In this document: piece by piece, positions 46,255 through 62,212 of the stretch
Position numbering within the stretch: position 1 is the stretch's first letter
Layout: every line of letters begins with the position of its first letter
Source: a virus
DNA length: 64,000 nt
IMG/VR virus record: IMGVR_UViG_3300014499_000004
Span: 1-64,000 of that record
Reading direction: 5' to 3' (one strand)
Translations under genes and position numbers: made by a program
The notes under the pieces: model-generated
What the model was told of the DNA's origin: nothing
The model's input: the letters and a program-made list of their open reading frames with translations, nothing else
Database searches by the model: none

Positions 46255-46305
46255 ACCCAGAAGGTATAGTGAATTACAATTGAGGTTCGATTCCTCAACT
46301 GGGTA
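46255..46305 (+). ncRNA. tRNA-like minihelix TLE1 (acceptor and T-arm only)
   Basis: Acceptor ACCCAG 46255-46260 / CTGGGT 46299-46304, T-arm TGAGG-TTCGATT-CCTCA (46281-46297), discriminator A. The centre is only 20 nt, without D or anticodon arm. Confidence 0.7.
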
Positions 46306-46331
46306 CTATGTATTAACTGAAAGGAGATTAA

Positions 46332-46592
46332 ATGATTGATACTAATGTTTGTTTCTTTGGATGTGGTAAGATTCGTAGTACAGAAGATGATCCACGATTC
46401 TTTGATAAAGAAACAGATTTAGTATGTAAAGACTGTAGAGAAATTGAACGTCTTGTAACCAATATGGGTGTTCCAGAGTTTAGAACCCATGATTTTGGTT
46501 GGTTAAGACGAAATTTAGGAATAAATTTTAGTGAACACCCTGATTTTGATCAGGTTTCTAAACTATTAGAAGCACAAACAAGAAAAATATAA
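46332..46592 (+). CDS. Zinc-knuckle plus WLRRNL-module protein, 86 aa
   Basis: CFFGCGKI ... CKDC (residues 7-35) then VPEFRTHDFGWLRRNLGI ... HPDF ... KLLEA, paralogous to the C-terminus of the protein at 45593. It follows the minihelix. Probable nucleic-acid binding; role unknown. Confidence 0.6.
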   Translation: MIDTNVCFFGCGKIRSTEDDPRFFDKETDLVCKDCREIERLVTNMGVPEFRTHDFGWLRRNLGINFSEHPDFDQVSKLLEAQTRKI

Positions 46593-46600
46593 GGAGAAAT

Positions 46601-46780
46601 ATGAAACCAGGAACAAAAATGGTTAAGGATACTACCAGTAAAATCGATCATGATATTACGGTCAAGGGCACCAAGCAACACACCATTGCAATTTGTTATA
46701 CTGAATCAGGTGGTGAGTTAATTGCAATTGGTTCACGTAATCATGTGAATCGTCAAGTAAGAATGCATAGAAGTAGGTAA
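46601..46780 (+). CDS. Basic small protein, 59 aa
   Basis: MKPGTKMVKDTTSKIDHDIT ... RQVRMHRSR; beta-like and basic. Preceded by AAGGAGAAAT. Ends immediately before pseudoknot PKL2. No family recognised. Confidence 0.5.
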   Translation: MKPGTKMVKDTTSKIDHDITVKGTKQHTIAICYTESGGELIAIGSRNHVNRQVRMHRSR

Positions 46781-46783
46781 TAA

Positions 46784-46939
46784 TAGCGTCGTTAGGCGCT
46801 AAGTGTAGTGGGATATTACTTGTAGAACTATTCGCTAACTAGGCGGGCAAGTAATAGTAGGTTCCTAGTTGGATACTCTTATTGCTCGTAGCCTCTGGCT
46901 ACATAGGTATAAGATTCCACTACACTTAAGGCTTAACGA
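46784..46939 (+). ncRNA. Long-stem pseudoknot RNA PKL2
   Basis: Stem 1 TAGCG 46784-46788 / CGCTA 46797-46801. Stem 2 (10 bp) 46802-46811 / 46917-46926. Loop TCGTTA 46789-46794 pairs with TAACGA 46934-46939. The long stem encloses two further hairpins (ATTACTTG/CAAGTAAT and GTAGCC/GGCTAC). Next ATG is 22 nt away. Confidence 0.65.
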
Positions 46940-46960
46940 ACAATAAAAAGGAGGTAAACA

Positions 46961-47353
46961 ATGATATTAGTCATTGATGATGTAAAGACATTTCCATTTC
47001 CAGATGATAAAGAAGTGTATTATGCTCGCACTTTGAAAGATGGTAATTTGTTTCTTGATCAATTTGAGAGAAATATTTACGCTACTTCAATGAATAATGA
47101 AAGTCTGGATGAACTCTGGCTTGACCATGATTTAGGTGGTGATGATACTATCAGATCAATTTGTTTAATGCTTGCTGAAAGAGCATTTAATGGTAATCCT
47201 TATCCAGTTGGTCGTATTGTTATTTGTTCAATGAATCCAGTTGGTATTGATTGGATATGGTCAACACTAAGTCCATACTATGATCTGGTAATATGTAATG
47301 ATCCAGAGTCAGTTCAAGATTTATTAGGTAGTACTCAAGCAAAGTGGTATTAA
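46961..47353 (+). CDS. Receiver-like (cREC-type) protein, 130 aa
   Basis: Starts MILVIDDVKTFPFPDDKEVY. Asp6-Asp7 at the first strand, LDHDLGG (54-60), and ICSMNP (88-93) are the residues that define the phage receiver-like (cyclic-phosphate processing receiver) family. No output domain. Likely binds phosphate or a small nucleotide. Family name is from memory; function in phage is unknown. Confidence 0.6.
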   Translation: MILVIDDVKTFPFPDDKEVYYARTLKDGNLFLDQFERNIYATSMNNESLDELWLDHDLGGDDTIRSICLMLAERAFNGNPYPVGRIVICSMNPVGIDWIWSTLSPYYDLVICNDPESVQDLLGSTQAKWY

Positions 47354-47359
47354 GAATGA

Positions 47360-47454
47360 CTTGAAGTTAATAGCTTCAAGGGTCACATGGAGTGGAATAG
47401 TTGGTACCAAGACTATTCTTTCGGTACACTCCATGTGTGCCTTGTAGTTATTAA
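47360..47454 (+). ncRNA. Long-stem pseudoknot RNA PKL3
   Basis: Stem 1 CTTGAAG / CTTCAAG (47360-47366 / 47374-47380). Stem 2 CACATGGAGTG 47384-47394 / CACTCCATGTG 47427-47437 (11 bp). Loop TTAATA 47367-47372 pairs with TATTAA 47449-47454. Next gene starts 29 nt downstream. Confidence 0.65.
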
Positions 47455-47482
47455 TAAAGGAGATTAATGATAAGGAGAATGA

Positions 47483-47677
47483 ATGAGTAGTGGTAAGAAT
47501 AGTTGGACTAGAGAAGTAGTTTGTCAAGCTGTTATACCTATTAGAATTGATCCAACAGCATCTGATGAGGAGGCTATTGAAGTAGTCCAAAAATTGATTG
47601 CAGATAGTCCTAGTGGAGCATTAAGAGTAGATCAATTGGACTTCTTTGCTATTCCTTTAGAGGATGAAGAAGAATGA
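47483..47677 (+). CDS. Small protein, 64 aa
   Basis: Alpha/beta, helical in the middle and acidic end (FFAIPLEDEEE). Starts after pseudoknot PKL3 with AAGGAGAATGA. Stop overlaps next start. Not recognised. Confidence 0.5.
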   Translation: MSSGKNSWTREVVCQAVIPIRIDPTASDEEAIEVVQKLIADSPSGALRVDQLDFFAIPLEDEEE

Positions 47678-47952
47678 AACTATCAGAACTAATCAAAGAA
47701 CTGCAAGATGTTAAAGCAGAAATTGGTGATGTTGAAGTATTATCTACTGATGAGCATGGTAGTCTCAACATAATTGAATCAGTTAAAACTTCAGTTAATA
47801 AAAAGATGGTTATTATTGATACTGTAGATGATCTTCCAAGAAGAGGACCATTTAAGCCATCTATCACTGGTAAAGAATTAGGTGAAATGGGTGGTATACC
47901 TGGAGTAACTGAAGAAGATGTTGAAGATTTTCTCCGAAATATTAGAGGATAA
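47674..47952 (+). CDS. Small protein, 92 aa (ELI-type phage early protein)
   Basis: MKLSELIKELQDVKAEIGDV followed by a beta-strand VLSTDEHGSLNIIE. This start resembles a common small phage protein and also the 58-aa protein at 53889 (MKMNELIEYL). Probably a small alpha/beta domain. The two are paralogues in my reading. Confidence 0.5.
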   Translation: MKLSELIKELQDVKAEIGDVEVLSTDEHGSLNIIESVKTSVNKKMVIIDTVDDLPRRGPFKPSITGKELGEMGGIPGVTEEDVEDFLRNIRG

Positions 47953-47959
47953 GTATTAA

Positions 47960-48004
47960 ACCCCATTACTTAAGTGTACGAGTGGAACAAGACCACATGG
48001 GGTA
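47960..48004 (+). ncRNA. Divergent tRNA-like minihelix
   Basis: Acceptor ACCCCAT 47960-47966 / ATGGGGT 47997-48003 (7 bp perfect), arm GTGG-AACAAGA-CCAC (47982-47996). The loop is not a T-loop. Otherwise it has the same layout and acceptor as TLE4. May be a diverged copy. Confidence 0.45.
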
Positions 48005-48083
48005 CTATGAAAGGAGATGATCATTATGCCCTAATTTAATTGTGTATAATACTTAACTAATGAAATAAGAAAATATAGTATCT

Positions 48084-48111
48084 GGTCCTGAGTATGGACC
48101 TTAAACTGCTC
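48084..48111 (+). ncRNA. Compact pseudoknot RNA PKc7
   Basis: Stem GGTCC / GGACC (48084-48088 / 48096-48100). Loop GAGTA 48090-48094 pairs with TGCTC 48107-48111 (one G-T). Linker TTAAAC. Enclosed by the 9-bp stem listed with the intergenic region. Confidence 0.6.
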
Positions 48112-48296
48112 CACATTGTTGGTTAGATGTAAGATACTATGAATTACCCATCAATGTCAGAGTGGAAAGTCCCAAATAATAGACCTGTAAATGGGGACTG
48201 AGATGGTAGTGGGTTCAGGCCATCATTTGATAAATACACAGACGGTTTCAGTACGCTTATCAAGCTAGATATAATAAGTAATTATGGCCAATGTGG

Positions 48297-48324
48297 ACAC
48301 CTTGGGTAAGTGTATAAACTGCCC
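48297..48324 (+). ncRNA. Compact pseudoknot RNA PKc8
   Basis: Stem ACAC / GTGT (48297-48300 / 48310-48313). Loop GGGTA 48304-48308 pairs with TGCCC 48320-48324. Linker ATAAAC. Start codon of the peptidase gene is 40 nt on. Confidence 0.6.
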
Positions 48325-48363
48325 CATTTCGTGTGTTAACGAATCAATAATAAAGGAGAATGA

Positions 48364-48915
48364 ATGAAAAAATCATTAATTGCACTTTCATTGTTGTCAC
48401 CTTTATTGTTGACTTCAACTGCTAGTGCAACGAATAATCAACCGTTAACATTACCGCCTGCATTAAATGCATTTGGTAATCAAAAATTCGAAGATTGTAT
48501 ATACTCTGCTGATGCAAACATGGTAGAACTATATGATCCCCATGTTCATATTACTGTAAAACAAGTAATAGAGGCATTCCAAACCTATGGAGAATCAGAT
48601 GGTCTCAACTATATGATAACCAATGGTTTTGATGGAGTAAAAGCCAGTACTATTATTGATCTTGGCAAGAATACTATTAATCTTTCAACTGAACTTGCTA
48701 ATGGTGGAGTTCAAGCATGGATTAATTTTCCAGGCCAAGGTCAACATGCAGTAGCAATAATACAAGTCACTAACAAACAAATTGAGTTTGTGAGTTGGGG
48801 ATATAAGTATTGGTGGAGTTTAAAAGAGTATCAAACAAAAATGTATGATCAATATACATTCATATGGAATGGAAATAGGAGAAAAAATGAGTTATTTTAT
48901 ACAATCAGGAGATAG
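48364..48915 (+). CDS. Secreted papain-like cysteine peptidase
   Basis: 183 residues with a classical signal peptide (MKKSLIALSLLSPLLLTSTA, cleaved near SATNN). Mature domain: Cys45 (KFEDCIYSAD), His128 (GQHAVAIIQV), Trp145 (EFVSWGYKYWW), the same triad order as the protein at 29680. Overlaps the ATPase start. May act outside the cell membrane, for example on the wall or an incoming phage. Substrate unknown. Confidence 0.55.
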   Translation: MKKSLIALSLLSPLLLTSTASATNNQPLTLPPALNAFGNQKFEDCIYSADANMVELYDPHVHITVKQVIEAFQTYGESDGLNYMITNGFDGVKASTIIDLGKNTINLSTELANGGVQAWINFPGQGQHAVAIIQVTNKQIEFVSWGYKYWWSLKEYQTKMYDQYTFIWNGNRRKNELFYTIRR

Positions 48916-49945
48916 TTTTTTTCCTGCAGCTTCTAAAGAAGCATTATTGGAAGGATTACCTTCGGGTAATTATACAATAGAACAAAGTATGACAGGATTA
49001 TTCTTTAAAAGAATAGAAAGTTTTCAACCTTTAGATAAGGTTTATGGAAGCCTAAATACTTGGGCAGAACGCACTCTTCAAACATTTGAAGATCGTGAAG
49101 TTAGTACAGGTATTCTTTTGTCAGGAGAAAAAGGTAGTGGAAAATCACTATTAGGTAGACTTATTTCACTAAAAGCTCATGATAAGAGTATTCCTACAGT
49201 AATAGTAAATGCTCCTTTTGAGGGTGCTGCACTACTAAAACTATTTGGAGAACTTACTCAACCTGTAATAGTATTTTTTGATGAATTTGATAAAGTTTAT
49301 AGTGATCTTGATCTTCAAGAATCAGTTTTATCATTACTCGATGGTATTTCAGGTACTAAACATTTGTTTATCATTACTTGTAATGATCTTTATCGTTTAT
49401 CAAGATTTCTATTAAATCGACCAGGAAGAATTTTCTATTTCATTGAATTTAATGGGATAGAAGAAAGTTTTATTAGGGAATATTGTAAAGATAATCTTAA
49501 TAATAAGTCAGAAATTGATAATATTGTTAAAATTTCAAAAATCTTTGAGAAGTTCAATTTTGATATGCTTAAATCATTAGTTGAAGAAATGAATAGATAT
49601 AATGAATCAGCACTTAAAGCAATTGAACTATTAAATATTACTCCTTCTCATCAAAATAATGTTGAATATAAAGTTTCTATCACAGATAAAGATAATAATG
49701 AATATATCAATTATCCTAATGAATGGGATGGATTCCCTCTAGAAGAGGAAAAGTTTGATATGAGAATTATGAGAACTGATGATAAAGAGAAAAAGGAATG
49801 GTTGGAGATAATGTTTTTAGATTCAGATCTAAATAATTTTGATACTTCTAATAAAGTATTTACTTACATTAATAAACAAGGATTTATTTTAACTTTCAAA
49901 ATTTCTGAACAGAAACACACAAATTGGATGAGTGCATTATATTAG
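48887..49945 (+). CDS. AAA+ ATPase
   Basis: 352 residues from ATG 48887 (AATAGGAGAAAAAATG); an upstream ATG would only extend it into the preceding gene. Walker A GEKGSGKS 80-87, Walker B VIVFFDEFD 117-125, sensor 1 Asn156 in FIITCND, arginine finger RPGR 168-171. C-terminal part unrecognised. Could be a DNA-remodelling, replication-loader or protein-unfolding factor. It is the only clear ATPase in the right arm. Confidence 0.8.
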   Translation: MSYFIQSGDSFFPAASKEALLEGLPSGNYTIEQSMTGLFFKRIESFQPLDKVYGSLNTWAERTLQTFEDREVSTGILLSGEKGSGKSLLGRLISLKAHDKSIPTVIVNAPFEGAALLKLFGELTQPVIVFFDEFDKVYSDLDLQESVLSLLDGISGTKHLFIITCNDLYRLSRFLLNRPGRIFYFIEFNGIEESFIREYCKDNLNNKSEIDNIVKISKIFEKFNFDMLKSLVEEMNRYNESALKAIELLNITPSHQNNVEYKVSITDKDNNEYINYPNEWDGFPLEEEKFDMRIMRTDDKEKKEWLEIMFLDSDLNNFDTSNKVFTYINKQGFILTFKISEQKHTNWMSALY

Positions 49946-49957
49946 AATTAAGTATCA

Positions 49958-50029
49958 TAGCATCGTATGGTGCTAAGGGTATTAGCATATAGCCCATAAC
50001 GGGATGCTAGTACTCTTAGGGCTATACGA
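49958..50029 (+). ncRNA. Long-stem pseudoknot RNA PKL4
   Basis: Stem 1 TAGCA 49958-49962 / TGCTA 49971-49975. Stem 2 (13 bp, two G-T) 49976-49988 / 50004-50016. Loop TCGTAT 49963-49968 pairs with ATACGA 50024-50029. Shortest long-stem member. Confidence 0.7.
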
Positions 50030-50089
50030 AAGTATTAGTCTATAAATAAAGTAAGGAATCTCATAATGAGAAAAATAAAGGAGAAAGAA

Positions 50090-50404
50090 ATGCCATTAGT
50101 AACAGATAAGGTTAAGGCTGCGCTTCAAGTTCAGTATGATGAGTATGCTGAAACAACGCGACTTAATCAGTTGGCTAGTCCCGGGGGAACCAAGAAGATA
50201 GTTAAGGGTGAGGAAGTTTTTGAGCCATTTCCTGATGCTGTTTCCTTCGATCAGTGGGTGAAAGAACAGCTCACCAGCGAGTTGGAAACACAACTTAAAA
50301 ATCTGGCTAATCATCGATTGGGTAATAAGTACAGCGTAGTTGCTGGTACTGTTAGCGATGCTCTCATTGGATTTTATCAGGGGCTCATTGCTGAGGTGAA
50401 GTAA
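50090..50404 (+). CDS. Hypothetical protein, 104 aa
   Basis: ATG 50090 (MPLVTDKVKAALQVQYDEYA) has AAAGGAG at the right distance; the ATG eight codons upstream does not. Helical and acidic. The gene uses more C/G-ending codons than its neighbours. No family recognised. Confidence 0.5.
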   Translation: MPLVTDKVKAALQVQYDEYAETTRLNQLASPGGTKKIVKGEEVFEPFPDAVSFDQWVKEQLTSELETQLKNLANHRLGNKYSVVAGTVSDALIGFYQGLIAEVK

Positions 50405-50667
50405 TGCCTATTGTTGATGAACCTAAAGAACCTAAAACAGTAAGAGTTATTACCGATGGGGGCAGCCATGCCATGAAAGGTGAAATTCTTACAGTAAGAT
50501 CATGGCCTGACCCTAGCTATGAAATGACTTACTATCAAATCAATAGAAATGGTATATGGACCGACAAGAGTATTAAAATATCTAATACTGAACTAGTGAA
50601 TATTGAAGATATTGATAATACTTCAAAGAGTGAGTTTAACTTTACTTTGATAGCAGTAGGGAATTAA
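50404..50667 (+). CDS. Small SH3-like protein, 87 aa (paralogue 1)
   Basis: MPIVDEPKEPKTVRVITDGG ... MKGEILTVRSW; beta-barrel style. The C-terminal FNFTLIAVGN is echoed by NFAQIAMGNL in the next gene, so the two are tandem paralogues. Overlaps the preceding stop. No function known. Confidence 0.5.
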   Translation: MPIVDEPKEPKTVRVITDGGSHAMKGEILTVRSWPDPSYEMTYYQINRNGIWTDKSIKISNTELVNIEDIDNTSKSEFNFTLIAVGN

Positions 50668-50668
50668 C

Positions 50669-50902
50669 ATGAATCCAACACTTAGAGTTAAACTTGTTGC
50701 TAACAAAGCTAGATATAATGGTAATAGATATCCAATCGGTACAGAAATTGAAGTAACTCAAAGCGAAAGAGATAAAAGGAAATTTTTCTTTCCTCGTAAA
50801 GACTATTATTGTTACAGAGAAGACTTTGAGATACTCGGAGAATCGTATAACGAAAGTAGTAGTGGAATGAATTTTGCTCAGATAGCAATGGGTAATTTGT
50901 AG
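50669..50902 (+). CDS. Small SH3-like protein, 77 aa (paralogue 2)
   Basis: MNPTLRVKLVANKARYNGNR ... Related in layout to the previous protein, with a shared C-terminal motif. Followed at once by PKL5. Confidence 0.5.
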   Translation: MNPTLRVKLVANKARYNGNRYPIGTEIEVTQSERDKRKFFFPRKDYYCYREDFEILGESYNESSSGMNFAQIAMGNL

Positions 50903-50914
50903 TACAATGTTTTA

Positions 50915-51009
50915 TAGCACCGTCGTATGGTGCTAAGAGTAGTAGAGCCAGAGAAAACAACACGGTAGGTTATCGTCATTGCAACTCTACTACTCTTAGG
51001 ACTATGCGA
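50915..51009 (+). ncRNA. Long-stem pseudoknot RNA PKL5
   Basis: Stem 1 TAGCACC / GGTGCTA (50915-50921 / 50929-50935, 7 bp). Stem 2 (12 bp perfect) 50936-50947 / 50985-50996. Loop TCGTAT 50923-50928 pairs with ATGCGA 51004-51009 (one G-T). Next ATG 23 nt away. Confidence 0.7.
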
Positions 51010-51031
51010 ATAGTTTAATAGAAGGAGAAAA

Positions 51032-51352
51032 ATGAGCGAAAGAACAGTTTTAGAATGGGAAGAATATATATGTAATGGACTTCCTGCTGTAAGAACTAAA
51101 CAAGGAAAGAAGTGGGATATCCATGTATGGGGTGGGACAAAAGAAAATCCTGTCTATGCACTTTCAGTTAGTGGTATACTTATTATTCAAGTAAATATTC
51201 CATCTATAGAAATAGCTAAAAGAATTGCACAAGAACTTCAACATGTTCTGGATGGTAATCTAATGGAAACTATTGGTGAACTTGTAGTAATTGCTTATCA
51301 ACGTGGTTTGACGAATGGGCAACCATTAGAAGAAAGTGAGATGAATATATAA
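51032..51352 (+). CDS. Hypothetical protein, 106 aa
   Basis: Alpha/beta, containing KKWDIHVWGGTKENPVYALS and a helical C-terminal half. Its stop overlaps the next start. Not recognised. Confidence 0.5.
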   Translation: MSERTVLEWEEYICNGLPAVRTKQGKKWDIHVWGGTKENPVYALSVSGILIIQVNIPSIEIAKRIAQELQHVLDGNLMETIGELVVIAYQRGLTNGQPLEESEMNI

Positions 51353-51786
51353 TGAGTATTTGGAGTTCAATACCTGGAACTTTTGCACTTCATTATGAAA
51401 ATAGTGTTACTGATCCTCGTAAAGCAAAACGATTACCAGGAGTAATGCCTGGTGAGTTTGGTGATGAAATTGATCTAGCAGTAGTTGTTAATGATGTTTA
51501 TGAAGATGCTCCCAATGAAGAGGGTTATTTACCTTATTTGCGTGTTGGTGTCACTGTTAATAATTTTACTAAGGGAGATGTAATTCTAAATCGTAAGCAA
51601 GTAAAGAAATTACGTAATGAATTAAATAGATTTCTTAAAGAAACTAAAAAGAAGAAAGAGACTATTGAAGAATTAGCACCAGGTCCTCACGGTAATGGAT
51701 ATACTTGCAAAAGTTGTGGTGAAAGTGCAATAACTTGTGGTATGCGTGAGAATGGTGATTGTTGTAATCACTGTGATCATAGTTAA
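51352..51786 (+). CDS. Hypothetical protein with C-terminal zinc knuckle, 144 aa
   Basis: Beta-rich body, basic helix (KQVKKLRNELNRFLKETKKK), then CKSCG ... CGMRENGDCCNHC at the end. Probably nucleic-acid binding. Followed by a 680-nt noncoding gap. Confidence 0.5.
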   Translation: MSIWSSIPGTFALHYENSVTDPRKAKRLPGVMPGEFGDEIDLAVVVNDVYEDAPNEEGYLPYLRVGVTVNNFTKGDVILNRKQVKKLRNELNRFLKETKKKKETIEELAPGPHGNGYTCKSCGESAITCGMRENGDCCNHCDHS

Positions 51787-52464
51787 TGAATTATAACTAT
51801 CAGGATAGCTAATATTATTAGCGTATCTAGGATCAAATCCACTGATAGTACGATGTATAGTTAGATGCTCTTGCACGAAGCAATCATCGGTGAAGAAGAA
51901 CCCCGCGTATTGCGGTTAGTAGCTTGCTATACATTAAGTGGAAGCACCATATTGTGTTGGAATATAATCGCCAATCAATAGTAGGTAAGCTGGGTGTATG
52001 CCATACTCTGGGTTGGGTATGTGCGCTGATTGGTCTGCGTATAGTAGATCCTACATTAATGTATTAATGTAAAAATTTGAAAAGTGATAAGAGTAACTGT
52101 TCTGAACGAGCTAAAAGTAAAGATCTTTTGCGGTCTGTTCTAACTCCCTGATATTACCGTATCATGGAACAGATTCTGTCGAACAATGAAAACACTTTCG
52201 AATTAAAGTTGGAATATATTGGTGCCAACCTCTTCCAATTTTCTTATTAATAATTAATGTAGGGTCTGCTATCGGCTAACCAATTAGAATTAGTCAATAG
52301 TCTTCCTAATAGAGATACTGTATTAAGGGCTTTTTATATTTTTTCACTCTTAATATACTGTCGGAGTAGTGTTCATTTGGATGATAACACTATTTATTAG
52401 GAAAGAAACAGCTGAGCAACTGTATAAACTGCTCCATTTCTGTAGTAAAATATAAAGGAGAAAA
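51787..52464 (+). other. Long structured intergenic region, no gene seen
   Basis: Contains many inverted repeats: ACTATCAG/CTGATAGT around a GCTAATA/TATTAGC hairpin; ATGTATAG/CTATACAT around a CCGC/GCGG hairpin; CCAATCA/TGATTGG; TCTGTTC/GAACAGA around TGATA/TATCA; TTGGAA/TTCCAA followed by TTTTCTT (terminator-like); TATTAAG/CTTAATA; TAGTGTT/AACACTA around CAT/ATG. Ends with PKc9. No frame of merit. Confidence 0.5.
52408..52434 (+). ncRNA. Compact pseudoknot RNA PKc9
   Basis: Stem ACAG / CTGT (52408-52411 / 52420-52423). Loop GAGCA 52414-52418 pairs with TGCTC 52430-52434 (all Watson-Crick). Linker ATAAAC. Next ATG 31 nt on. Confidence 0.65.
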
Positions 52465-53508: not shown

Positions 53509-53583
53509 GCCTCTGTAACTCAGTCTGGACAGAGTACTCCGTTTCTACCGGAATAGTCGGGCGTTCAAATCGCTCCAGGGGCA
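53509..53583 (+). tRNA. tRNA-Arg (TCT)
   Basis: 75-nt cloverleaf: acceptor GCCTCTG/CAGGGGC, D-stem ACTC/GAGT, anticodon loop TTTCTAC (TCT), T-arm GGGCG-TTCAAAT-CGCTC, discriminator A, no CCA. One mismatch at the base of the anticodon stem. Decodes AGA, a codon likely frequent in this AT-rich genome. Confidence 0.9.
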
Positions 53584-53642
53584 CTTAGTTTTAACAGATC
53601 TCAATGTATGAGAAAAAAAAATAGTAGTTAGAAAGGAATTAA

Positions 53643-54497: not shown

Positions 54498-54540
54498 GCA
54501 CTGAATGGTTGTAATGAAAGGTTCGATTCCTTCCAGTGCG
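54498..54540 (+). ncRNA. tRNA-like minihelix TLE2
   Basis: Acceptor GCACTG 54498-54503 / CAGTGC 54534-54539, T-arm AAAGG-TTCGATT-CCTTC (54517-54533, one A-C mismatch), 13-nt centre with ATGGT. Discriminator G. 3' flank CGATAG. Confidence 0.7.
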
Positions 54541-54593
54541 CGATAGATAGATGCGCCATCGTATACAATCCTACGATAATGCGAATCGCTATT

Positions 54594-54622
54594 AGACCTA
54601 GATATATGTCTTTAAAGTGTCT
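54594..54622 (+). ncRNA. Compact pseudoknot RNA PKc10
   Basis: Stem AGAC / GTCT (54594-54597 / 54608-54611). Loop AGATA 54600-54604 pairs with TGTCT 54618-54622. Linker TTAAAG. Confidence 0.55.
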
Positions 54623-55270
54623 CGTTACTATATGATTGATTCAAAAATCAATGCTTATAACAGAGTTGACTGTAGAAATACTCTTTTAAGAATGAATTCT
54701 TTTGAAAAAAGATATAGTAAATGTGGAGCTGAGTAATCTCTTACCATAGGAATATTTATGGGCTAAACTATTTGTTATATTGACGATAGATATTATTCGA
54801 AATTTATCTAATGTGAAAAGCATTAAGGAAATAGTTAATAGAATATTATACTTTCGCAGCTGCATTAGATAATATCGACTGACATCTAACATAACTGAGC
54901 AAAGTACGGCTAGCGTCCGAGAAGGAATGTTATGACATTTATCAGGGGAGATAATATTGACAATAAATATAACGTTTTGCACACAACGGCTTATGATCCA
55001 TCCAGAAAATGGCATACCAAACTTATGTATGATGTTTGATATACAGAAGAGGTCAATCCCAGGATTAAATGTTGGTGTTTAGGTATTTACCAATAATGGC
55101 TTTGGCCCTGAGGTAATTGAGGGTAGGATCTATTAGTCAGCCTATAAAAATATATGGACTAAAATGCTAATTCTATTAGAAAGTTTTAGGCTTGTGGGTT
55201 AACACACGAAAATAAGACTCAAAGATAGGAATTAGTGAGAAGTAAAAGGACAACCCCTTTGGTTGAGGTA

Positions 55271-55323
55271 ACTCCAGGTAGATAGTTTTGGTACAGTAAT
55301 GGGTTCGATCCCCTTCTGGAGTG
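55271..55323 (+). ncRNA. tRNA-like minihelix TLE3
   Basis: Acceptor ACTCCAG 55271-55277 / CTGGAGT 55316-55322 (7 bp), T-arm ATGGG-TTCGATC-CCCTT (one T-T mismatch). 21-nt centre. Discriminator G, followed by CGATGTA like tRNA-Asn. Confidence 0.75.
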
Positions 55324-55545: not shown

Positions 55546-55850
55546 TGGATTTTTATGAAAACGCAGCAGCGTTACAAAGAGATGTACCAAATTTGCATAC
55601 TGGTGATACTGTTAATGAAAAGAATTTCAGCACAGCAGAACTTGCTGAGCAGATGGCAGTTGCCTTTCAAAGGGGACGTAAATATAATTTTGGTAAGCTT
55701 AAAGGTAAAATTCAAGATGCAATTGATAATATTAGAAAATTTAAACCAGATGCAGCAACTTCTAGAGCAATTAGTACTAACTATGAAGATGGTCGAGCAG
55801 ATGCTTATATCATAGTTTTAGGTTGGATATATGAACTAGAAAAGAATTAA
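55545..55850 (+). CDS. Helical protein, 101 aa
   Basis: MDFYENAAALQRDVPNLHTG; mixed helix, basic middle (KYNFGKLKGKIQDAI). The last base of its stop is the first base of TLE4. No motif. Confidence 0.5.
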   Translation: MDFYENAAALQRDVPNLHTGDTVNEKNFSTAELAEQMAVAFQRGRKYNFGKLKGKIQDAIDNIRKFKPDAATSRAISTNYEDGRADAYIIVLGWIYELEKN

Positions 55851-55892
55851 CCCCATATGGTACAAGTACAGGTTCAATTCCTGTATGGGGTA
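55850..55892 (+). ncRNA. tRNA-like minihelix TLE4
   Basis: Acceptor ACCCCAT 55850-55856 / ATGGGGT 55885-55891 (7 bp perfect), T-arm ACAGG-TTCAATT-CCTGT (5 bp perfect), centre only 11 nt (ATGGTACAAGT), discriminator A. The cleanest example. It begins at the stop codon of the previous gene. Confidence 0.8.
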
Positions 55893-55919
55893 CAAAGTTA
55901 ATTAAGAAAAGGAGAAAAA

Positions 55920-56204: not shown

Positions 56205-56205
56205 T

Positions 56206-56505
56206 ATGCAAGATAATTATCAAACTTGTATAGTAAAAATGGAACAATTTGAAGAGTTTGTACATTATGATGGTAATATGACTGGTTATTTATCTCACAT
56301 AGATATTCAGTTAATTAAACATTATCATATTAATTATTTGATTTATTCTTATTCAACATTAATATGTTTTATTAATTTTAACGATAAAACCTATTGTATA
56401 AACCCCCAAAGATATAGTACTACTACTAGTAAACAAGTATCATATATTAGAAGAGCAGTTAAAGTATGGGAACGTAAAGGATTTCAAAGAATTTTATGGA
56501 TTTAG
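56206..56505 (+). CDS. Hypothetical protein, 99 aa
   Basis: ATG at 56206 just after the previous stop; a longer start 42 nt upstream would overlap. Tyr/His/Ile-rich (MQDNYQTCIVKMEQFEEFVH). No motif. Confidence 0.45.
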   Translation: MQDNYQTCIVKMEQFEEFVHYDGNMTGYLSHIDIQLIKHYHINYLIYSYSTLICFINFNDKTYCINPQRYSTTTSKQVSYIRRAVKVWERKGFQRILWI

Positions 56506-56523
56506 TAAAAGAAAGGAAATAAA

Positions 56524-57045
56524 ATGATTAATTTTAATAAAATTAAGCAACAGCATTTAAAATTGGAAGATATGAATGGAATGCCATATTGTGATAAATG
56601 TACAATTATTTGGCCTTGTGAAGTGATAACAATTTTAGATGAGTTTGAACACTTTATTAAGAAGATTAAGTTTAATTCAAAGGTTGTTTATTCTTGGATT
56701 AAAGATTATCAAGAAGTATTTGAGGTAGGAGATATTGTTGACTTTGTGAATAGTGCATTACCTGAAGAGTTTGCTAATGTTGCAACTATTAAAGATATTG
56801 AATCACTACCCACCTACCATCTGGAAGATGATGATGGAAGAGGGTGGATAAATGTTAAGCAAAATGATCTCACCATGATCAAGAAGCGTCAAGATAAAGA
56901 ATTAGTACCTCATGCTCATAGTTCTGATTGTACTAGTTGGAGAACATGTAATTGTCCAAGAATTGTAGAAGTTTGTGCTAAATGTGGAACACCATTTGAT
57001 AATGATAAGTTTAATAGATGTAAAATATGTCATCCTATGGGATAA
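56524..57045 (+). CDS. Zinc protein with WPC motif, 173 aa
   Basis: N-terminal CDKCTIIWPCEVITILDE (the C-x2-C-x3-WPC unit seen at 44548) and C-terminal CNCPRIVEVCAKCGT ... CKICHP cluster. A middle domain (VVYSWIKDYQEVFEVGDIVD) looks SH3-like. Probably nucleic-acid binding. Confidence 0.55.
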   Translation: MINFNKIKQQHLKLEDMNGMPYCDKCTIIWPCEVITILDEFEHFIKKIKFNSKVVYSWIKDYQEVFEVGDIVDFVNSALPEEFANVATIKDIESLPTYHLEDDDGRGWINVKQNDLTMIKKRQDKELVPHAHSSDCTSWRTCNCPRIVEVCAKCGTPFDNDKFNRCKICHPMG

Positions 57046-57059
57046 TACTTAAAGAAACA

Positions 57060-57088
57060 TGACCTTAAACACGTCATTAAACTGTTTA
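57060..57088 (+). ncRNA. Compact pseudoknot RNA PKc11
   Basis: Stem TGAC / GTCA (57060-57063 / 57073-57076). Loop TAAACA 57066-57071 pairs with TGTTTA 57083-57088 (6 bp). Linker TTAAAC. AT-rich loop and AT-rich partner: strong covariation against GGGTA/TGCCC. Ends 4 nt before TLE5. Confidence 0.65.
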
Positions 57089-57091
57089 CAT

Positions 57092-57254
57092 GGTCCTGAT
57101 AGTTGGTATTACTATCTTTAAACTACGAGTTATTGATCAGTTTCAGTTAATAATCCCTAGTATGTTCGCTTTATATAAATGTATTTTAATTGATTTTAGC
57201 ATTTATATTTAGCTTGAGCAATTATAGTAGGTAGTTCAAATCTACCCAGGACCC
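57092..57254 (+). ncRNA. tRNA-like element TLE5 with a 131-nt central insert
   Basis: Acceptor GGTCCTG 57092-57098 / CAGGACC 57247-57253 (7 bp), T-arm GGTAG-TTCAAAT-CTACC (57230-57246). The centre has TACTAT/ATAGTA and ATATAAATG/CATTTATAT stems and a D-arm-like TAGT-TGGTATT-ACTA. It may be a normal tRNA split by an insertion or an enlarged relative of the minihelices. No full anticodon arm can be assigned. Confidence 0.55.
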
Positions 57255-57286
57255 CTAGTTTTAAAATACAAATAGAAAAGAGAAAG

Positions 57287-57802
57287 ATGGAAAATGAATT
57301 TGAAAATGAATTTAATGATAATAGTACAGATCTTAAATCCCTAGAGGAGTTTTTTAGTAAAGAAATTAACAATCTTTTTACTCCTCAAGAAATAATGATA
57401 TTATCATTGTCGTTAAATCACATAGCAAATGTATTAAATCTATACAGTATGTATTCTGATGTAGCTATTTTTGATGTAAAAGCATTTATAGAGAAACATC
57501 CTGAATATGCTAATATAGATTTTAATAATTTAAAAGATTTAGATGAAGATACACTAAAAACTATAGAAGATGCACTTTATGATAAAAATGGAAGTAATGG
57601 TGAAGAATTTAATAAAGGTGATATACTTATTAAAAATATTATTACAACAATATTAAGTGCTTCTTCAAAGTTGTATAATACCTATACAAAAGAATATAGT
57701 AAAATATCACCACCAGATACAGAACCATTTTTTACAATGTTAGAGAATTGTTTACAAAGTTCTCTTTCATTGTTAACAGCACTCTTTACACCAAGACCTT
57801 AA
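57287..57802 (+). CDS. Acidic helical protein, 171 aa
   Basis: All-helical, acidic, with Asn/Leu/Ile-rich repeats. Resembles in style the proteins at 57821, 58963 and 59342 (short hydrophobic stretches and TPQE-, TPLQ-like spots). Possibly a diverged paralogue group. No motif. Confidence 0.5.
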   Translation: MENEFENEFNDNSTDLKSLEEFFSKEINNLFTPQEIMILSLSLNHIANVLNLYSMYSDVAIFDVKAFIEKHPEYANIDFNNLKDLDEDTLKTIEDALYDKNGSNGEEFNKGDILIKNIITTILSASSKLYNTYTKEYSKISPPDTEPFFTMLENCLQSSLSLLTALFTPRP

Positions 57803-57820
57803 AGAAAGAGAAGAAATAAA

Positions 57821-58183
57821 ATGGATGAATCTAAAATATTAGAGGAATGTGTTAATATTAGCCTTACTCCTCTCCAGACTATACTGTTATCAAAAACTTT
57901 AATTGTAACTAATACATTAATAGATTTTCTGTTAGCAAATAATTGTATGGACATAGAAAAAATTAAAAACGATAGTTCTGAAATTCCAGTTTTTGAACCA
58001 ACAGGAAATATTCTAATTAAATCTGCAGTTGCAGCAATGAAAGAAGTTTGTGACAAGATTTGGGAAAGTGGACGTGAAGAAATTGGAGAAGAAATTCCTG
58101 AAGAATTTGAAGAAGTTATATTAGTATATTCTACAGTCGTAGAGCAAATTGCTATACAATTTGTAAAATCATTAAAAAAATAG
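57821..58183 (+). CDS. Acidic helical protein, 120 aa
   Basis: Starts MDESKILEECVNISLTPLQT. Helical, with a region ILIKSAVAAMKEVCDKIW. Same style group as 57287. No motif. Confidence 0.5.
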   Translation: MDESKILEECVNISLTPLQTILLSKTLIVTNTLIDFLLANNCMDIEKIKNDSSEIPVFEPTGNILIKSAVAAMKEVCDKIWESGREEIGEEIPEEFEEVILVYSTVVEQIAIQFVKSLKK

Positions 58184-58200
58184 AGAGAAAGATAAATTAA

Positions 58201-58359
58201 ATGTCAAAACACAGTACTGAAAATGGGAAACCAGCACAGAGACTTCAGAAGAGAATAGATGCTTATGAGGACTCTGTTAATGGTAGATCTTCAGGTAGTT
58301 ATCCGCAAAGTGCTAGTATTAGAAATACTTTGCGAAAGCCGGGGAGTAGGAAAAAATGA
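58201..58359 (+). CDS. Small basic protein, 52 aa
   Basis: MSKHSTENGKPAQRLQKRID ... LRKPGSRKK. Basic, Ser-rich, probably nucleic-acid binding. Stop overlaps next ATG. Confidence 0.5.
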   Translation: MSKHSTENGKPAQRLQKRIDAYEDSVNGRSSGSYPQSASIRNTLRKPGSRKK

Positions 58360-58592
58360 TTTGGTGGATTACTGAAAAATTTTACAAAGTTGCTCCATGG
58401 TTTTGGGTAATAGCTACATTTATATGGATAATTAGTGACTTTATCTTATGGTGTCAAGAGAAATCTATTATTAGTTGGGGATCATTTGGCTATTTTATTT
58501 TAATTCTTTTAACAATGTGGATCTTTGAAAGCAATTGGAAAATTTTAGTTGCAAGATCAAATGCTAAAAAAGTATCAAGAAATAGGAGATAA
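58356..58592 (+). CDS. Membrane protein, 78 aa
   Basis: Two hydrophobic segments (WFWVIATFIWIISDFILW and SFGYFILILLTMWIFES) with a basic end. Coupled to the previous gene. No motif. Confidence 0.55.
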   Translation: MIWWITEKFYKVAPWFWVIATFIWIISDFILWCQEKSIISWGSFGYFILILLTMWIFESNWKILVARSNAKKVSRNRR

Positions 58593-58594
58593 CT

Positions 58595-58843
58595 ATGATT
58601 TGTAATAGTCATTGTAGCCATGGTGGAGTTTGTATACTAACAGAAAATCATGAAGAAAAGCATGATAGTCGATACTGTCAGTGGACTGATGAAGAAGCTA
58701 TTAGTAAAGAAGAAGCAGATCAACTGTTCTTACTTGAAGCAAAATTTCAAGGAGCTGAACAAATAGCAGAATTAATGATTGCTATAGAAGATCAACTAAT
58801 GGCTCGTTTAAAAGAGTTAGAAGAAGAAGAAAATAAAAAATAA
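58595..58843 (+). CDS. Cys/His small protein, 82 aa
   Basis: CNSHCSHGGVCILTENHEEK then H ... C-rich, followed by helical acidic tail. This Cys/His arrangement (CSHGGVC...H...H...C.W) is widespread in small phage proteins. No known function. Confidence 0.55.
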   Translation: MICNSHCSHGGVCILTENHEEKHDSRYCQWTDEEAISKEEADQLFLLEAKFQGAEQIAELMIAIEDQLMARLKELEEEENKK

Positions 58844-58850
58844 GTAGTAA

Positions 58851-58894
58851 GGGCAGCTGGTGCGTTAAAGGGAGTTCGTTTCTCCCTTTGCCCA
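58851..58894 (+). ncRNA. tRNA-like minihelix TLE6
   Basis: Acceptor GGGCAG 58851-58856 / TTGCCC 58888-58893, T-arm GGGAG-TTCGTTT-CTCCC (58870-58886), centre 12-13 nt (TGGTG), discriminator A, 3' flank CGATA. T-loop has T instead of A at the fifth position. Confidence 0.65.
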
Positions 58895-58962
58895 CGATAT
58901 TAGCAGTAATGATATGTATAATATCAATTAGTATCAGTAAAGACAGTTAAAAAAGGAGATAT

Positions 58963-59307
58963 ATGAATGATGAAAATATTCAAATAAAAGATTTAACTGA
59001 AATGGAAAGATTAGTTATCGGTAGTTCTATAAATTTTGTTTATAATATTATTAATAGTCAAATTTATCATATAGAACACCATGACCCAGCATTAACAGAA
59101 TTATTAGCTTCTAATGAAATTGCTCAAGAAGATTATATTCTTTTACAAAATTTAAGAGAAGTTACAGAAAAGTTGACTAATTTGTTTGGTAATACACTTT
59201 CTTCATTTTCAGATGAAGAAAAAGAAAGTTTATCAAAACCAGGTATGAAATTAGAATTCTTTTTTCAGGGAATATTTCATGCAATATCATGTGATGACGG
59301 AAATTAA
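58963..59307 (+). CDS. Acidic helical protein, 114 aa
   Basis: MNDENIQIKDLTEMERLVIG; all-helical acidic. Same style group as 57287, 57821 and 59342. No motif. Confidence 0.5.
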   Translation: MNDENIQIKDLTEMERLVIGSSINFVYNIINSQIYHIEHHDPALTELLASNEIAQEDYILLQNLREVTEKLTNLFGNTLSSFSDEEKESLSKPGMKLEFFFQGIFHAISCDDGN

Positions 59308-59341
59308 AACTATAATAAACAATAATATTTAAAGGGAAAAA

Positions 59342-59773
59342 ATGTTAGATGATGAATTTAAAAAGATTGAAGACTTCCTTAAAGTTGGAGGAAATTTAGA
59401 GTTACAAACTCTTCAAAAATTTGAAGAAATAGTAGATGACTTTATTACAAATAAATTTAAAGTGAATTCTAAGGAAAGTTTTTCAACTTTAAATTTACTA
59501 ATTTTTCATAGTTATAGTGAATTTGAAAAAAGTAATGAAAGTATTACAAAAGATTTTGCTATTACTATATTAGTTATTAAAAAACTTATATTAATACTTC
59601 AAAATACAAATGATGAATCTATTTTGAATGAAGAAGATAAAAAAACATATATGCGATTAATAAAAATGTTAATGGGTTCATTTAAGAAAGAAATTGAATC
59701 TCATCTTAATTTCTTTAAGACATTTGCAGAATATATTGATGATATTACTAACTTACTTAGTACTGAAAGCTAA
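59342..59773 (+). CDS. Acidic helical protein, 143 aa
   Basis: Helical, Phe/Lys/Glu-rich (LKVGGNLELQTLQKFEEIVD). Same style group. Followed by TLE7. No motif. Confidence 0.5.
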   Translation: MLDDEFKKIEDFLKVGGNLELQTLQKFEEIVDDFITNKFKVNSKESFSTLNLLIFHSYSEFEKSNESITKDFAITILVIKKLILILQNTNDESILNEEDKKTYMRLIKMLMGSFKKEIESHLNFFKTFAEYIDDITNLLSTES

Positions 59774-59785
59774 AATAAGTTAGTA

Positions 59786-59830
59786 GGGGTTCTGGTGATT
59801 TTATAGTGGGTTCGATTCCCACTGACCCCG
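59786..59830 (+). ncRNA. tRNA-like minihelix TLE7
   Basis: Acceptor GGGGTT 59786-59791 / GACCCC 59824-59829 (one G-T), T-arm GTGGG-TTCGATT-CCCAC (perfect), 14-nt centre containing TGGTG, discriminator G. Confidence 0.7.
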
Positions 59831-59857
59831 CTCAGTAAATAAAAAATAGGAGTTATA

Positions 59858-60127
59858 ATGATAGATCCACAATATAGAAAAGAATATACAAAACAACATT
59901 TTATGAATAATGTTGAAAAAGATGCAGACTACTTAGTAATACTCGAAAAAAGTGATACTTTAAATTGGTCTACTATACCAAGTGTATTTGGAGTATTTGA
60001 AACTGTAGATGAAGCAATTGAATATTTTTTTAGTGAGGATAAGACCGGTAAAAAATGGACCACAATTAGAATATATGATCTTTATGCACCATTCGAAACA
60101 TCAATAATACAAAGTTCATCACGTTAA
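59858..60127 (+). CDS. IYDLYA-family protein, 89 aa
   Basis: Paralogue of 55920 (KQHF ... DYLVI ... WSTIP ... IYDLYA). TLE7 lies just upstream; TLE4 likewise precedes its paralogue, so the arrangement was duplicated. Confidence 0.55.
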   Translation: MIDPQYRKEYTKQHFMNNVEKDADYLVILEKSDTLNWSTIPSVFGVFETVDEAIEYFFSEDKTGKKWTTIRIYDLYAPFETSIIQSSSR

Positions 60128-60152
60128 ATGAGCTAATTACTCACTCATATCC

Positions 60153-60182
60153 TTGATTTTTTATCAAAATTGATGCTATACT
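60153..60182 (+). promoter_or_regulatory. Possible sigma70-type promoter
   Basis: TTGATT, an 18-nt spacer, TATACT, just before the gene at 60213. The first box overlaps an inverted repeat TTGAT/ATCAA. The only decent match I noticed; weak evidence. Confidence 0.35.
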
Positions 60183-60212
60183 ATTAGATATACATTAAGC
60201 AAGGAAATATCT

Positions 60213-60419
60213 ATGAGCACTACGAAAGACAATCGTTTAATCTTTAAAATCAAGAATAGCAATCGTAAAAAGTATTTTACTCAATCTACTGACTCCGAGA
60301 AATATACGGCTCGAAAACTCCGTAAATTCAATAATGGAGCGTTCGGTAGAATGAAATCTCATAATACCAAAAACTATAACAAGATGATTATTGGAACTAG
60401 TTTAGGATCAAAGATGTAA
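60213..60419 (+). CDS. Small basic protein with NGAFG motif, 68 aa
   Basis: MSTTKDNRLIFKIKNSNRKK ... ARKLRKFNNGAFGRMKS; basic throughout; similar to 53643. Probably nucleic-acid binding. Followed by two compact pseudoknots. Confidence 0.5.
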   Translation: MSTTKDNRLIFKIKNSNRKKYFTQSTDSEKYTARKLRKFNNGAFGRMKSHNTKNYNKMIIGTSLGSKM

Positions 60420-60427
60420 TTTACATT

Positions 60428-60455
60428 AGACCCGGATATGTCTCAAAACTATGCC
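60428..60455 (+). ncRNA. Compact pseudoknot RNA PKc12
   Basis: Stem AGAC / GTCT (60428-60431 / 60440-60443). Loop GGATA 60434-60438 pairs with TATGCC 60450-60455 with one bulged G. Linker AAAAC. Second best-effort member. Confidence 0.45.
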
Positions 60456-60491
60456 CCGTAAGGTATGTAATAAATATAATACGATACATCC

Positions 60492-60519
60492 ACGACCTGA
60501 GTATGTCGTTAAAGTGCTC
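60492..60519 (+). ncRNA. Compact pseudoknot RNA PKc13
   Basis: Stem ACGAC / GTCGT (60492-60496 / 60505-60509). Loop GAGTA 60499-60503 pairs with TGCTC 60515-60519. Linker TAAAG. Start of the next gene 30 nt on. Confidence 0.6.
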
Positions 60520-60548
60520 TATTTCTTATATAAAAAAAGGAGTGTAAT

Positions 60549-61151
60549 ATGAAATTACAAACAGTTATAGATAAAGATTATGTACCACAAGTTGGTGATG
60601 TTCTATCTAATGATAAACATTCATGCATAACTATAGAGATGATTTATAAATTAGATAGATATTCATATAGAGTTAATAGGAATTATAATGATGATCTATT
60701 TAAATATGAAGCTCTTAAGAAAGTAATTCGGAGAAAAGAAATTATTTGGAGTCAACACAAATTTGATTTTCAATTATTTCCAGTAACTAGCCCAGCACAC
60801 CGTGGTAATGACGAAGAACAAACTATAGATATACGCAAGAATATAACTTTTCATATATATCTTTTTTATAATGACAACAAACAATATCAGCGATTATACA
60901 ATTCAAAGTATGATTTCCCGCCTCAGCGTAAAAGTAGAGTTATAATAGGTAAAAAAATAATGGTAAGAGTAAATCATAGTTTATGTCGTGAGGAAGTTCC
61001 AGCTGATGAAAAACAATATCATTCATCTGGAAGAGGTTGCTACTATTGGTATGGCAAAAAAGCTACTCCATTAGGTTCTCTTGTAAATCAGAAATTTGTA
61101 TACCATGGTAATATATACTCTGATCTATTAGAGTCGCATGATTGGGACTAA
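60549..61151 (+). CDS. Hypothetical protein, 200 aa
   Basis: Beta-rich, basic, Tyr-rich (YRVNRNYNDDLFKYEALKKV), with one Cys in NHSLCREEVP. Starts after AAAGGAGTG. No family recognised; probably nucleic-acid or protein binding. Confidence 0.5.
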   Translation: MKLQTVIDKDYVPQVGDVLSNDKHSCITIEMIYKLDRYSYRVNRNYNDDLFKYEALKKVIRRKEIIWSQHKFDFQLFPVTSPAHRGNDEEQTIDIRKNITFHIYLFYNDNKQYQRLYNSKYDFPPQRKSRVIIGKKIMVRVNHSLCREEVPADEKQYHSSGRGCYYWYGKKATPLGSLVNQKFVYHGNIYSDLLESHDWD

Positions 61152-61427
61152 ATGAAAGTTAACTTTAATGATGAAGATCATGAGAGTGTAGTAATAGCCA
61201 TGGAAGTTGGTTATCAAGCACTAGCAGATTTAGCAAATTTGTATAAAGAGATCAATAGTGAATTATTAAAACAATTAGCTATCTTTGAGGGTAAATCAGT
61301 TAGAGATATTAAGAAAGATATTAATACTTCTTTATCATTAGATGGTAAAGAAAAAGATTTATTAGCAAAGATTAAAGCATCACAAGAAGTAATAAAAAGA
61401 TATAATAAGTCAAAAAAGGAGAAATAA
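61152..61427 (+). CDS. Helical protein, 91 aa
   Basis: Helical, Lys/Ser-rich end (KRYNKSKKEK). Start right after the previous stop. No motif. Confidence 0.5.
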   Translation: MKVNFNDEDHESVVIAMEVGYQALADLANLYKEINSELLKQLAIFEGKSVRDIKKDINTSLSLDGKEKDLLAKIKASQEVIKRYNKSKKEK

Positions 61428-61628
61428 ATGCCTCAAAGTGAAACATTTTGTTGGATGCATATGAAAGATCATTGTAATCACTGTGAACTTGAACAATTAA
61501 GAAAAATTGTTAAAGATGCAGTTTACAATATTGAATCTGCTGATAGTTTTGGTGATGAATTAGATCCTGATGATTTACTAAAAATACTTAAACGCCCAAT
61601 TAAACCTAGTAACATCATAGAAGAATAA
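61428..61628 (+). CDS. Small zinc protein, 66 aa
   Basis: CWMHMKDHCNHCELEQLRK: Cys/His N-terminus and acidic helical tail. Followed by TLE8 after 4 nt. No known function. Confidence 0.5.
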   Translation: MPQSETFCWMHMKDHCNHCELEQLRKIVKDAVYNIESADSFGDELDPDDLLKILKRPIKPSNIIEE

Positions 61629-61632
61629 CACA

Positions 61633-61675
61633 ACCCCATATGGTATTTACATCTGTTCGATTCAGATGTGGGGTA
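61633..61675 (+). ncRNA. tRNA-like minihelix TLE8
   Basis: Acceptor ACCCCAT 61633-61639 / GTGGGGT 61668-61674 (one T-G), T-arm ATCTG-TTCGATT-CAGAT (perfect), 11-nt centre with ATGGT, discriminator A. The acceptor matches TLE4 almost exactly. Confidence 0.75.
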
Positions 61676-62212
61676 CTTAATCGTAACAAACTTGTAATAT
61701 TAAGTTACTTGCTAATCTAGCTGGTATCAGTTACTCTTTATAATGCCCGTAGGGTTAAAGGGTGCTGGGGTGGGGTAGTAACTCCATAACACTAACTAAT
61801 AGTCAATTGATAGTCATTGTTACTTGTGAAGTAACGTATATCACTAATAGTTAACAGTTAATCAATCAAATATATAACAGTTAGTTATTAATCCCTTAAT
61901 ATTTAAGGTGTAATAGAATCTAAAATAATGTAGTACAGCTCCAAATGGTTATATACCAGTTCGATTCTGGTCTGGAGCACGACTGATAACTGATGGATCT
62001 TCTTTTCTTAGAATAAGTGGAGGGATTACAGGCAGTCTAATAGTATGTACGTTTATCTATTTCTAGCATACTTGATAATAAGGAATAGGGGAATAGTTAT
62101 GGCTATAAACTGTAAATAATAGTACAAGTCTCCAATCATGAGAGGGTGAAAGCTGTGATGTCCTAAGCAAGATAGTAAAAGGCTTATTCGTTCGTATAAA
62201 GGAGGTCGTAAA
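61676..62212 (+). other. Structured intergenic region, no gene seen
   Basis: About 540 nt with TLE9 and GC-rich patches (TGCCCGTAGGGTTAAAGGG). Short pairs such as TAG-TTATGG-CTA precede a TAAACTG segment near 62095-62115, a weak relative of the compact pseudoknots. No frame of merit. Confidence 0.45.
61938..61979 (+). ncRNA. tRNA-like minihelix TLE9
   Basis: Acceptor GCTCCA 61938-61943 / TGGAGC 61973-61978, T-arm ACCAG-TTCGATT-CTGGT (perfect), 10-11-nt centre with ATGGT, discriminator A, 3' flank CGACT. Confidence 0.75.

Follow-up and report, generated by a model that had tools for sequence, protein, structure and literature searches.

Transfer RNA (tRNA) structures that lie between mitochondrial genes serve as cut sites in polycistronic transcripts, an arrangement referred to as tRNA punctuation, and the acceptor/T-arm minihelix has until now been encountered mainly as a laboratory substrate of RNase P and as a hypothetical ancestor of tRNA. 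Here we describe a series of natural minihelices of this kind in IMG/VR virus record IMGVR_UViG_3300014499_000004: eight within the 64,000-nucleotide (nt) stretch that was analysed (record positions 1-64,000, hereafter the window) and a ninth beyond it in the same contig of 67,760 bases. Such 41-53-nt "half tRNAs" stand between the genes of many phages, where they probably allow host enzymes to split long transcripts. As in mitochondrial punctuation, tRNA-like structures are found at the boundaries of co-directional genes; the mitochondrial system uses full tRNAs, whereas the phage marks are minihelices unable to decode.

Hairpins that consist of an acceptor stem and a T-arm are RNase P substrates in vitro, and AT1 and other synthetic substrates share with the phage elements the acceptor stem, T-stem and T-loop, the lack of a D-arm and an anticodon arm, and a purine discriminator followed by C (PMC11143913). 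The AT1 type is laboratory-made and ends in CCA. The phage elements, by contrast, occur naturally between genes, have retained a GG like that of the D-loop, rarely encode CCA and are presumed to be cleaved. The mascRNA and menRNA of the MALAT1 and MEN-beta 3′ ends are likewise tRNA-like, with an elbow built from the T-loop and two guanines; in mascRNA, RNase P and RNase Z recognise this elbow, which includes two D-loop guanines (PMC11693755), and both enzymes measure from the elbow to the cut site (PMC11693755; PMC4919913). These RNAs are not aminoacylated and lie directly downstream of an RNA whose end is made by RNase P, which we count as a further likeness. Human mascRNA, present once per locus, has a small D-arm and an anticodon-like stem, whereas both arms are absent in the phage elements, which are shorter, occur many times per genome and lie mostly between protein genes. 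The SAS and ESAS repeats of actinobacteriophages, whose function is unknown, are also small repeats in gaps upstream of gene starts (PMC3203893, PMC7302621); compared by description only, they differ in being defined by primary sequence (a 13-bp SAS and 17-bp inverted repeats), with no tRNA-like architecture described.

The original prediction, made on the window alone, knew of no described phage family of this form, and none was found: no family in Rfam 15 matches the elements, and no phage RNA of this form was found in the open-access literature. The minihelix would function as tRNA punctuation does and is similar to the synthetic AT1, yet it is neither a tRNA (it has no anticodon arm) nor a mascRNA (it has no D-arm or anticodon-like arm). 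The class of signal is known; what we describe is a probable tRNA-like processing signal of unusual breadth and simplicity.

Architecture and covariation of the minihelices

All eight predicted elements are present at the positions first proposed for them. They are listed below with their acceptor strands (5′ / 3′) and covariance-model scores, followed by the ninth.

E1, 46255..46305, + strand: minihelix, ACCCAG / CTGGGT around TTGAGG-TTCGATT-CCTCAA; discriminator A, then C; 39.3 bits
E2, 54498..54540, + strand: minihelix, GCACTG / CAGTGC; linker AATGGTT; discriminator G; 43.2 bits from a model whose training set includes it
E3, 55271..55323, + strand: minihelix, ACTCCAG / CTGGAGT; linker of 21 nt with TTGGT; discriminator G; 17.2 bits
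E4, 55850..55892, + strand: minihelix, ACCCCAT / ATGGGGT; linker TATGGTA; loop TTCAATT; 51.3 bits
E5, 58851..58894, + strand: minihelix, GGGCA / TGCCC; T-stem of 7 bp; stop codon 7 nt upstream; 41 bits
E6, 59786..59830, + strand: minihelix, GGGGT / ACCCC; T-stem of 7 bp; stop codon 12 nt upstream; 41.6 bits
E7, 61633..61675, + strand: minihelix, ACCCCA / TGGGGT; stop codon 4 nt upstream; 54.1 bits
E8, 61938..61979, + strand: minihelix, GCTCCA / TGGAGC; linker AATGGTT; 50.7 bits
E9, 64355-64401 of the record: minihelix beyond the window, same contig

The predicted combination of acceptor and T-arm around a short middle was recovered in all eight window elements, where acceptor, T-stem and T-loop form one helix. 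The stack of acceptor and T-stem measures 12 base pairs (bp), as in tRNA, except in E2 (11 bp with one internal mismatch). An acceptor stem of 6-7 bp had been proposed; the stem is there in all eight, but its boundary with the T-stem slides on the 5′ strand, giving acceptors of 5-8 bp, while the total stays at the 7 + 5 of tRNA. The T-loop is TTCGATT, with single cases of TTCAATT, TTCGTTT and TTCGATC. Between acceptor and T-stem lie 10-21 nt, with no four-arm cloverleaf and no anticodon arm, and neither ARAGORN nor the Rfam tRNA models (RF00005) match at the window elements. The D-stem and anticodon arm are absent, as predicted, but the GG that would dock at the elbow is retained: all nine contig elements have GG in the linker, 2-4 nt past the acceptor (farther in E3), and, as in mascRNA, these two guanines could interact with the T-loop to form an elbow. 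ATGGT or TTGGT had been seen in five elements, and those five stand (four and one, respectively); GGT is in fact present in all eight, the remaining contexts being CTGGT (two) and AAGGT (one). A purine (R73) and then C74 directly follow the 3′ strand in all nine. The weakest member is E3, with its low score, a T-stem mismatch and the long linker; for E1 an alternative, longer partner strand (ACTCAGT) is present at 46179.

A strict descriptor (a 7-nt T-loop of the TTC type, 4-7 bp of T-stem and an acceptor without mismatches that continues the same 12-nt 3′ strand) matched seven of the eight elements, with one false match on each strand, against a chance expectation of 0.17 matches per 20 kb of Markov-shuffled DNA; E2 was missed and was recovered by the covariance model. 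Across eight of the contig elements, 97.8% of pairing cells are paired and 11 of the 12 base pairs have changes on both sides; the covariation score was reached by none of 500 shuffles, and slid registers also fall far short of it. The minihelix folds are stable.

Distribution among phages and prophages

Searches were made with two covariance models, R1 and R2, whose E-values are rough, and with pattern scans, namely an ACCCCA-type pattern and a looser pattern with AATGGTT that skews estimates of host range and abundance, its figures being counts among the matches listed. R1 and the ACCCCA-type pattern led to two more related phage lineages, one with three different elements and the other with five. 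Overall, viral contigs with the minihelix number at least about 100, and a few prophages of isolates (Bacteroidota, Bacillota and Actinomycetota) have it as well. The covariance-model search that had been proposed as a check recovered the elements in many phages, cultured ones included, which supplies the conservation on which the original prediction was made to depend; its view that the minihelix is the minimal type of substrate for tRNA enzymes is supported by related elements in unrelated phages, again including cultured ones.

Across 105 distinct sequences, compensatory changes are seen in 11 of 12 pairs. Two related lineages have positional orthologues, elements F3 and H5, upstream of the same orthologous gene, their stems differing by compensatory changes. 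With the looser pattern, 95 of the 121 matches listed for viral contigs are complete minihelices, as against 0 of 16 for a control pattern with a scrambled T-loop. A GG-to-CC control yields many matches because the changed string occurs in real tRNAs: among the matches listed, 92 of 122 are ordinary tRNAs and six are minihelix-like, five of these within tRNAs. In random DNA with the pattern planted, 0.1-0.5% would pass as a minihelix. R2 found elements in all 34 source records tested, which had been selected for holding a match, with a maximum of 12 per record; the record that reaches 12 belongs to Mycobacterium phage Indlulamithi, for which M. smegmatis serves as host in culture.

Of the 117 looser-pattern matches listed for bacterial genomes, 26 are minihelices. 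Those examined include Mu-like prophages of Bacteroidota, three loci of which have the element beside the transposase gene, as well as regions of prophage in Paenibacillus and Corynebacterium; eight isolate genomes have one or two elements apiece. No match was obtained in 198 other Bacillota genomes, in a search of reduced sensitivity. Among 14 well-known phages (T4, lambda, Mu, HTVC008M, HTVC011P, Rhodococcus E3, Finch, Pupper, Stormageddon, Tonenili, ET08, StarPlatinum, LE2-3 and phiPsa315) there is no full match, only partial matches of 21 bits, and Elizabethkingia phage TCUEAP3 has no element. When a 45-nt element was used as blastn query against named phages, the matches were mostly T-arms of tRNAs. 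No near relative of the window phage spanning the minihelix region was found among phage records at the DNA level: the contigs recovered as relatives are near-identical to it or are without that region, and relatives reached through the AAA-ATPase (44 records) gave only five weak matches of 22-30 bits.

Position between genes

All window elements are on the + strand, and the genes around them are small and have no Pfam match. That all are intergenic had been predicted, and all do lie between open reading frames (ORFs), with the reservation that the element at 55850 overlaps a stop codon by one base. A stop codon occurs within about 12 nt upstream of six of the nine contig elements (E9 judged by inspection). 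In the wider set, counted with ATG-only ORFs, 152 of 177 elements are intergenic, as against 20% of random placements, and 112 of 134 have same-strand genes on both flanks; regular gene-minihelix-gene arrays are found in contigs L172 and L179 and in phage Indlulamithi.

The layout is most uniform in cultured phages of M. smegmatis, of which Indlulamithi has 12 elements, Cuke 10, Fowlmouth 9, MrMiyagi 9 and Papyrus 5; no minihelix is annotated in the regions of their gene tables that were read. In three of these phages the stop codon is followed after about 9 nt by the minihelix, and this by the hairpin, the ribosome-binding site and ATG. For the 31 elements from three phages, measured against annotated gene tables, the stop codon is a median of 9 nt upstream and the annotated ATG a median of 44 nt downstream, and in all 31 the 30 nt past C74 form a hairpin of at least 4 kcal/mol that usually starts 1-4 nt in. 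Fowlmouth and Cuke elements that occupy matching places show compensatory changes relative to each other. The downstream hairpin is less uniform in other lineages, where 28% have a z below -1.5.

Some elements stand next to non-coding RNA. In one lake-phage lineage (L157, L128, L137, L148, L184, L552-L558) the 3′ end of a GOLLD RNA lies 6-11 nt upstream of a minihelix. A general association of the two was considered and rejected: seven related lake-phage records have the pairing and six other GOLLD loci do not. Two GOLLD loci without a minihelix have tRNAs about 100 nt downstream. In marine loci (for example L160:5016-5190, L199, L154 and L183) a single minihelix is preceded at 10-14 nt by a TATAAATA-like motif, which resembles a T4 late promoter, and the two sit between a conserved ORF of about 75 amino acids and variable downstream genes.

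The 3′ end of the elements

C74, which the search pattern itself required (as RC), is found in 152 of 153 minihelices and in 154 of 160 full tRNAs of the same loci; elements outside the search patterns have it in 42 of 43 cases, the lone exception being a truncated match. The N-C-N-A form, in which A76 is favoured, occurs in 111 of the 153 minihelices and 113 of the 160 tRNAs, CC after the discriminator in 11 and 13, and an encoded CCA in 9 and 13. This 3′ site type, common to the minihelices and the phages' real tRNAs, suggests that both are served by the same 3′ enzymes. The tRNA genes of these phages (for example tRNA-Arg at 53509) are also like the minihelices in standing shortly after stop codons, and differ from them in having an anticodon arm and a D-stem.

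As an observation on the tRNA genes themselves, C74 and often A76 without the full CCA, which is rare, amounts to an odd partial CCA.

A proposed role in transcript processing and its alternatives

The structure, covariation, position, tRNA-like 3′ trailer and spread established here are most economically read as a processing signal. What RNase P and RNase Z read has been kept in the element, and the features that decoding requires have been dropped. It is likely that the minihelices are natural transcript punctuation marks cut by host tRNA nucleases. Nearly as probable, in our judgement, is the broader proposition that a dedicated mini-tRNA without anticodon serves as gene separator in phages from several bacterial phyla, with host RNase P and RNase Z cutting polycistronic transcripts into hairpin-protected messages, a bacterial counterpart of mitochondrial punctuation. 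In this scheme the linker GG would dock into the T-loop to form a tRNA elbow, from which host RNase P would measure the distance to the acceptor and cut 5′ of it, a few nt past the upstream stop codon. A host 3′ tRNA endonuclease of the RNase Z type would cut past the discriminator base. The polycistronic transcript would be converted to separate mRNAs, the downstream one starting at C74, and in many phages this new 5′ end would be protected by a stabilising hairpin a few nt farther on, ahead of the ribosome-binding site and ATG. Where a pair of elements surrounds a gene-free stretch, or an element follows a GOLLD RNA, the same cuts could mature a non-coding RNA.

Several points weigh against this proposal. 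The C75 of the RCC motif that binds RNase P is mostly absent, though likewise in the phages' own tRNAs; 15 further cultured phages that were tested yielded no homologous element; the window's own phage shows no regular downstream hairpin; and punctuation seems less needed at the marine loci, where a single element stands just after the TATAAATA-like motif. With the motif near a lone element, the excised RNA itself may have a role. Such a 42-nt product might mimic tRNA, receiving CCA or binding EF-Tu, RNase P or a different tRNA enzyme, and act as decoy or regulator, and its upstream motif would fit an RNA transcribed for its own sake, as would the single element of some genomes. This account is compatible with RNase P cleavage and does not exclude the other, but the many different stems per genome and the fixed sites at gene boundaries with hairpin and ribosome-binding site favour the cut, and we regard the RNA as product as rather unlikely. 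Slightly less doubtful, yet still improbable, is an uncut minihelix that acts as a stable structure of the untranslated region, either as a roadblock to exonucleases at the 3′ end of a message or as a spacer that insulates terminating from initiating ribosomes. The stable folds agree with it, as does the position about 9 nt past stop codons and ahead of ribosome-binding sites; a plain hairpin would suffice for such a task, and the conserved T-loop, linker GG, 12-bp stack, R73-C74 and tRNA-like trailer would go unexplained.

The site between stop codon and ribosome-binding site would also suit an action on the ribosome, in which the tRNA-like structure promotes reinitiation or internal initiation of the downstream gene. 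We consider this very unlikely, given that the downstream gene has a separate ribosome-binding site, that the element has no anticodon and that some elements follow a non-coding RNA and are not between two genes. Least credible of all is an origin as decayed tRNA genes, as pieces of tRNA genes from attachment (att) sites, or by chance. A T-arm with an acceptor strand does resemble the attachment core of many integrating phages, but such a core is a 3′ tRNA part that matches a host tRNA and is without the complementary 5′ acceptor strand, and here that strand is always there and covaries; together with the ordered arrays, this refutes decay, attachment or chance as a general account. The chance rate is also negligible. 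For an integrase-adjacent element of Paenibacillus, an att-site reading was considered separately and rejected, as there is no second copy in its genome.

If punctuation by host enzymes is the role of the minihelices, they represent a widespread, unannotated RNA class that places viral mRNA processing under host tRNA maturation, and the acceptor/T-arm minihelix has a natural role in vivo. Many gaps of about 80-100 nt in some phage operons would be explained, and the elements would offer compact RNA-processing parts (about 42 nt) for bacterial gene circuits. The cultured M. smegmatis phages make the claim immediately testable.

Other features of the window phage

The contig is a phage fragment whose portal protein is about 40% identical in parts to the portals of large Mycobacterium, Gordonia and Rhodococcus phages. 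Three further features are associated with the minihelix region.

53509..53584, + strand: full tRNA-Arg; a possible small ORF ends 6 nt upstream, a position type like that of the minihelices
54542..55270, + strand: gene-free stretch between E2 and E3, candidate excised non-coding RNA; folding z -2.3
61677..61937, + strand: gene-free stretch between E7 and E8, candidate excised non-coding RNA; folding z -2.0

Both bracketed stretches fold better than expected, and the sole ORF in 54542..55270, on the opposite strand, has no Pfam match.

Other structured sequences were noted beside these. At 57092-57254 (+) there is a large tRNA-like structure, missed by ARAGORN and Rfam, with a 7-bp acceptor (GGTCCTG/CAGGACC), a D-arm and a T-arm, in which two long extra arms replace the anticodon and variable arms (folding z -4.8). 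In Pseudomonas phage phiPsa315 (L240), positions 5940-6065 hold an unannotated intergenic tRNA-like sequence with a normal T-arm and a long outer stem (ATAGACTAGG...CCTAGTCTATAT). Long intergenic hairpins of similar sequence (GCRTCGTATGGTGCTAAGRGTA...) at 46775-46950, 49950-50045 and 50905-51015 (+), with energies of -41 to -67 kcal/mol, constitute a second repeated RNA family of the window phage. The motif TWAAACTGCYCC occurs in six copies against one expected (44204, 45255, 45529, 48101, 48314 and 52424), all on the + strand and some just upstream of gene starts. Lastly, the 1582-amino-acid portal ORF at 4795-9543 (-) contains matches to endonuclease and intein-like families, which suggests an intein in the portal protein.

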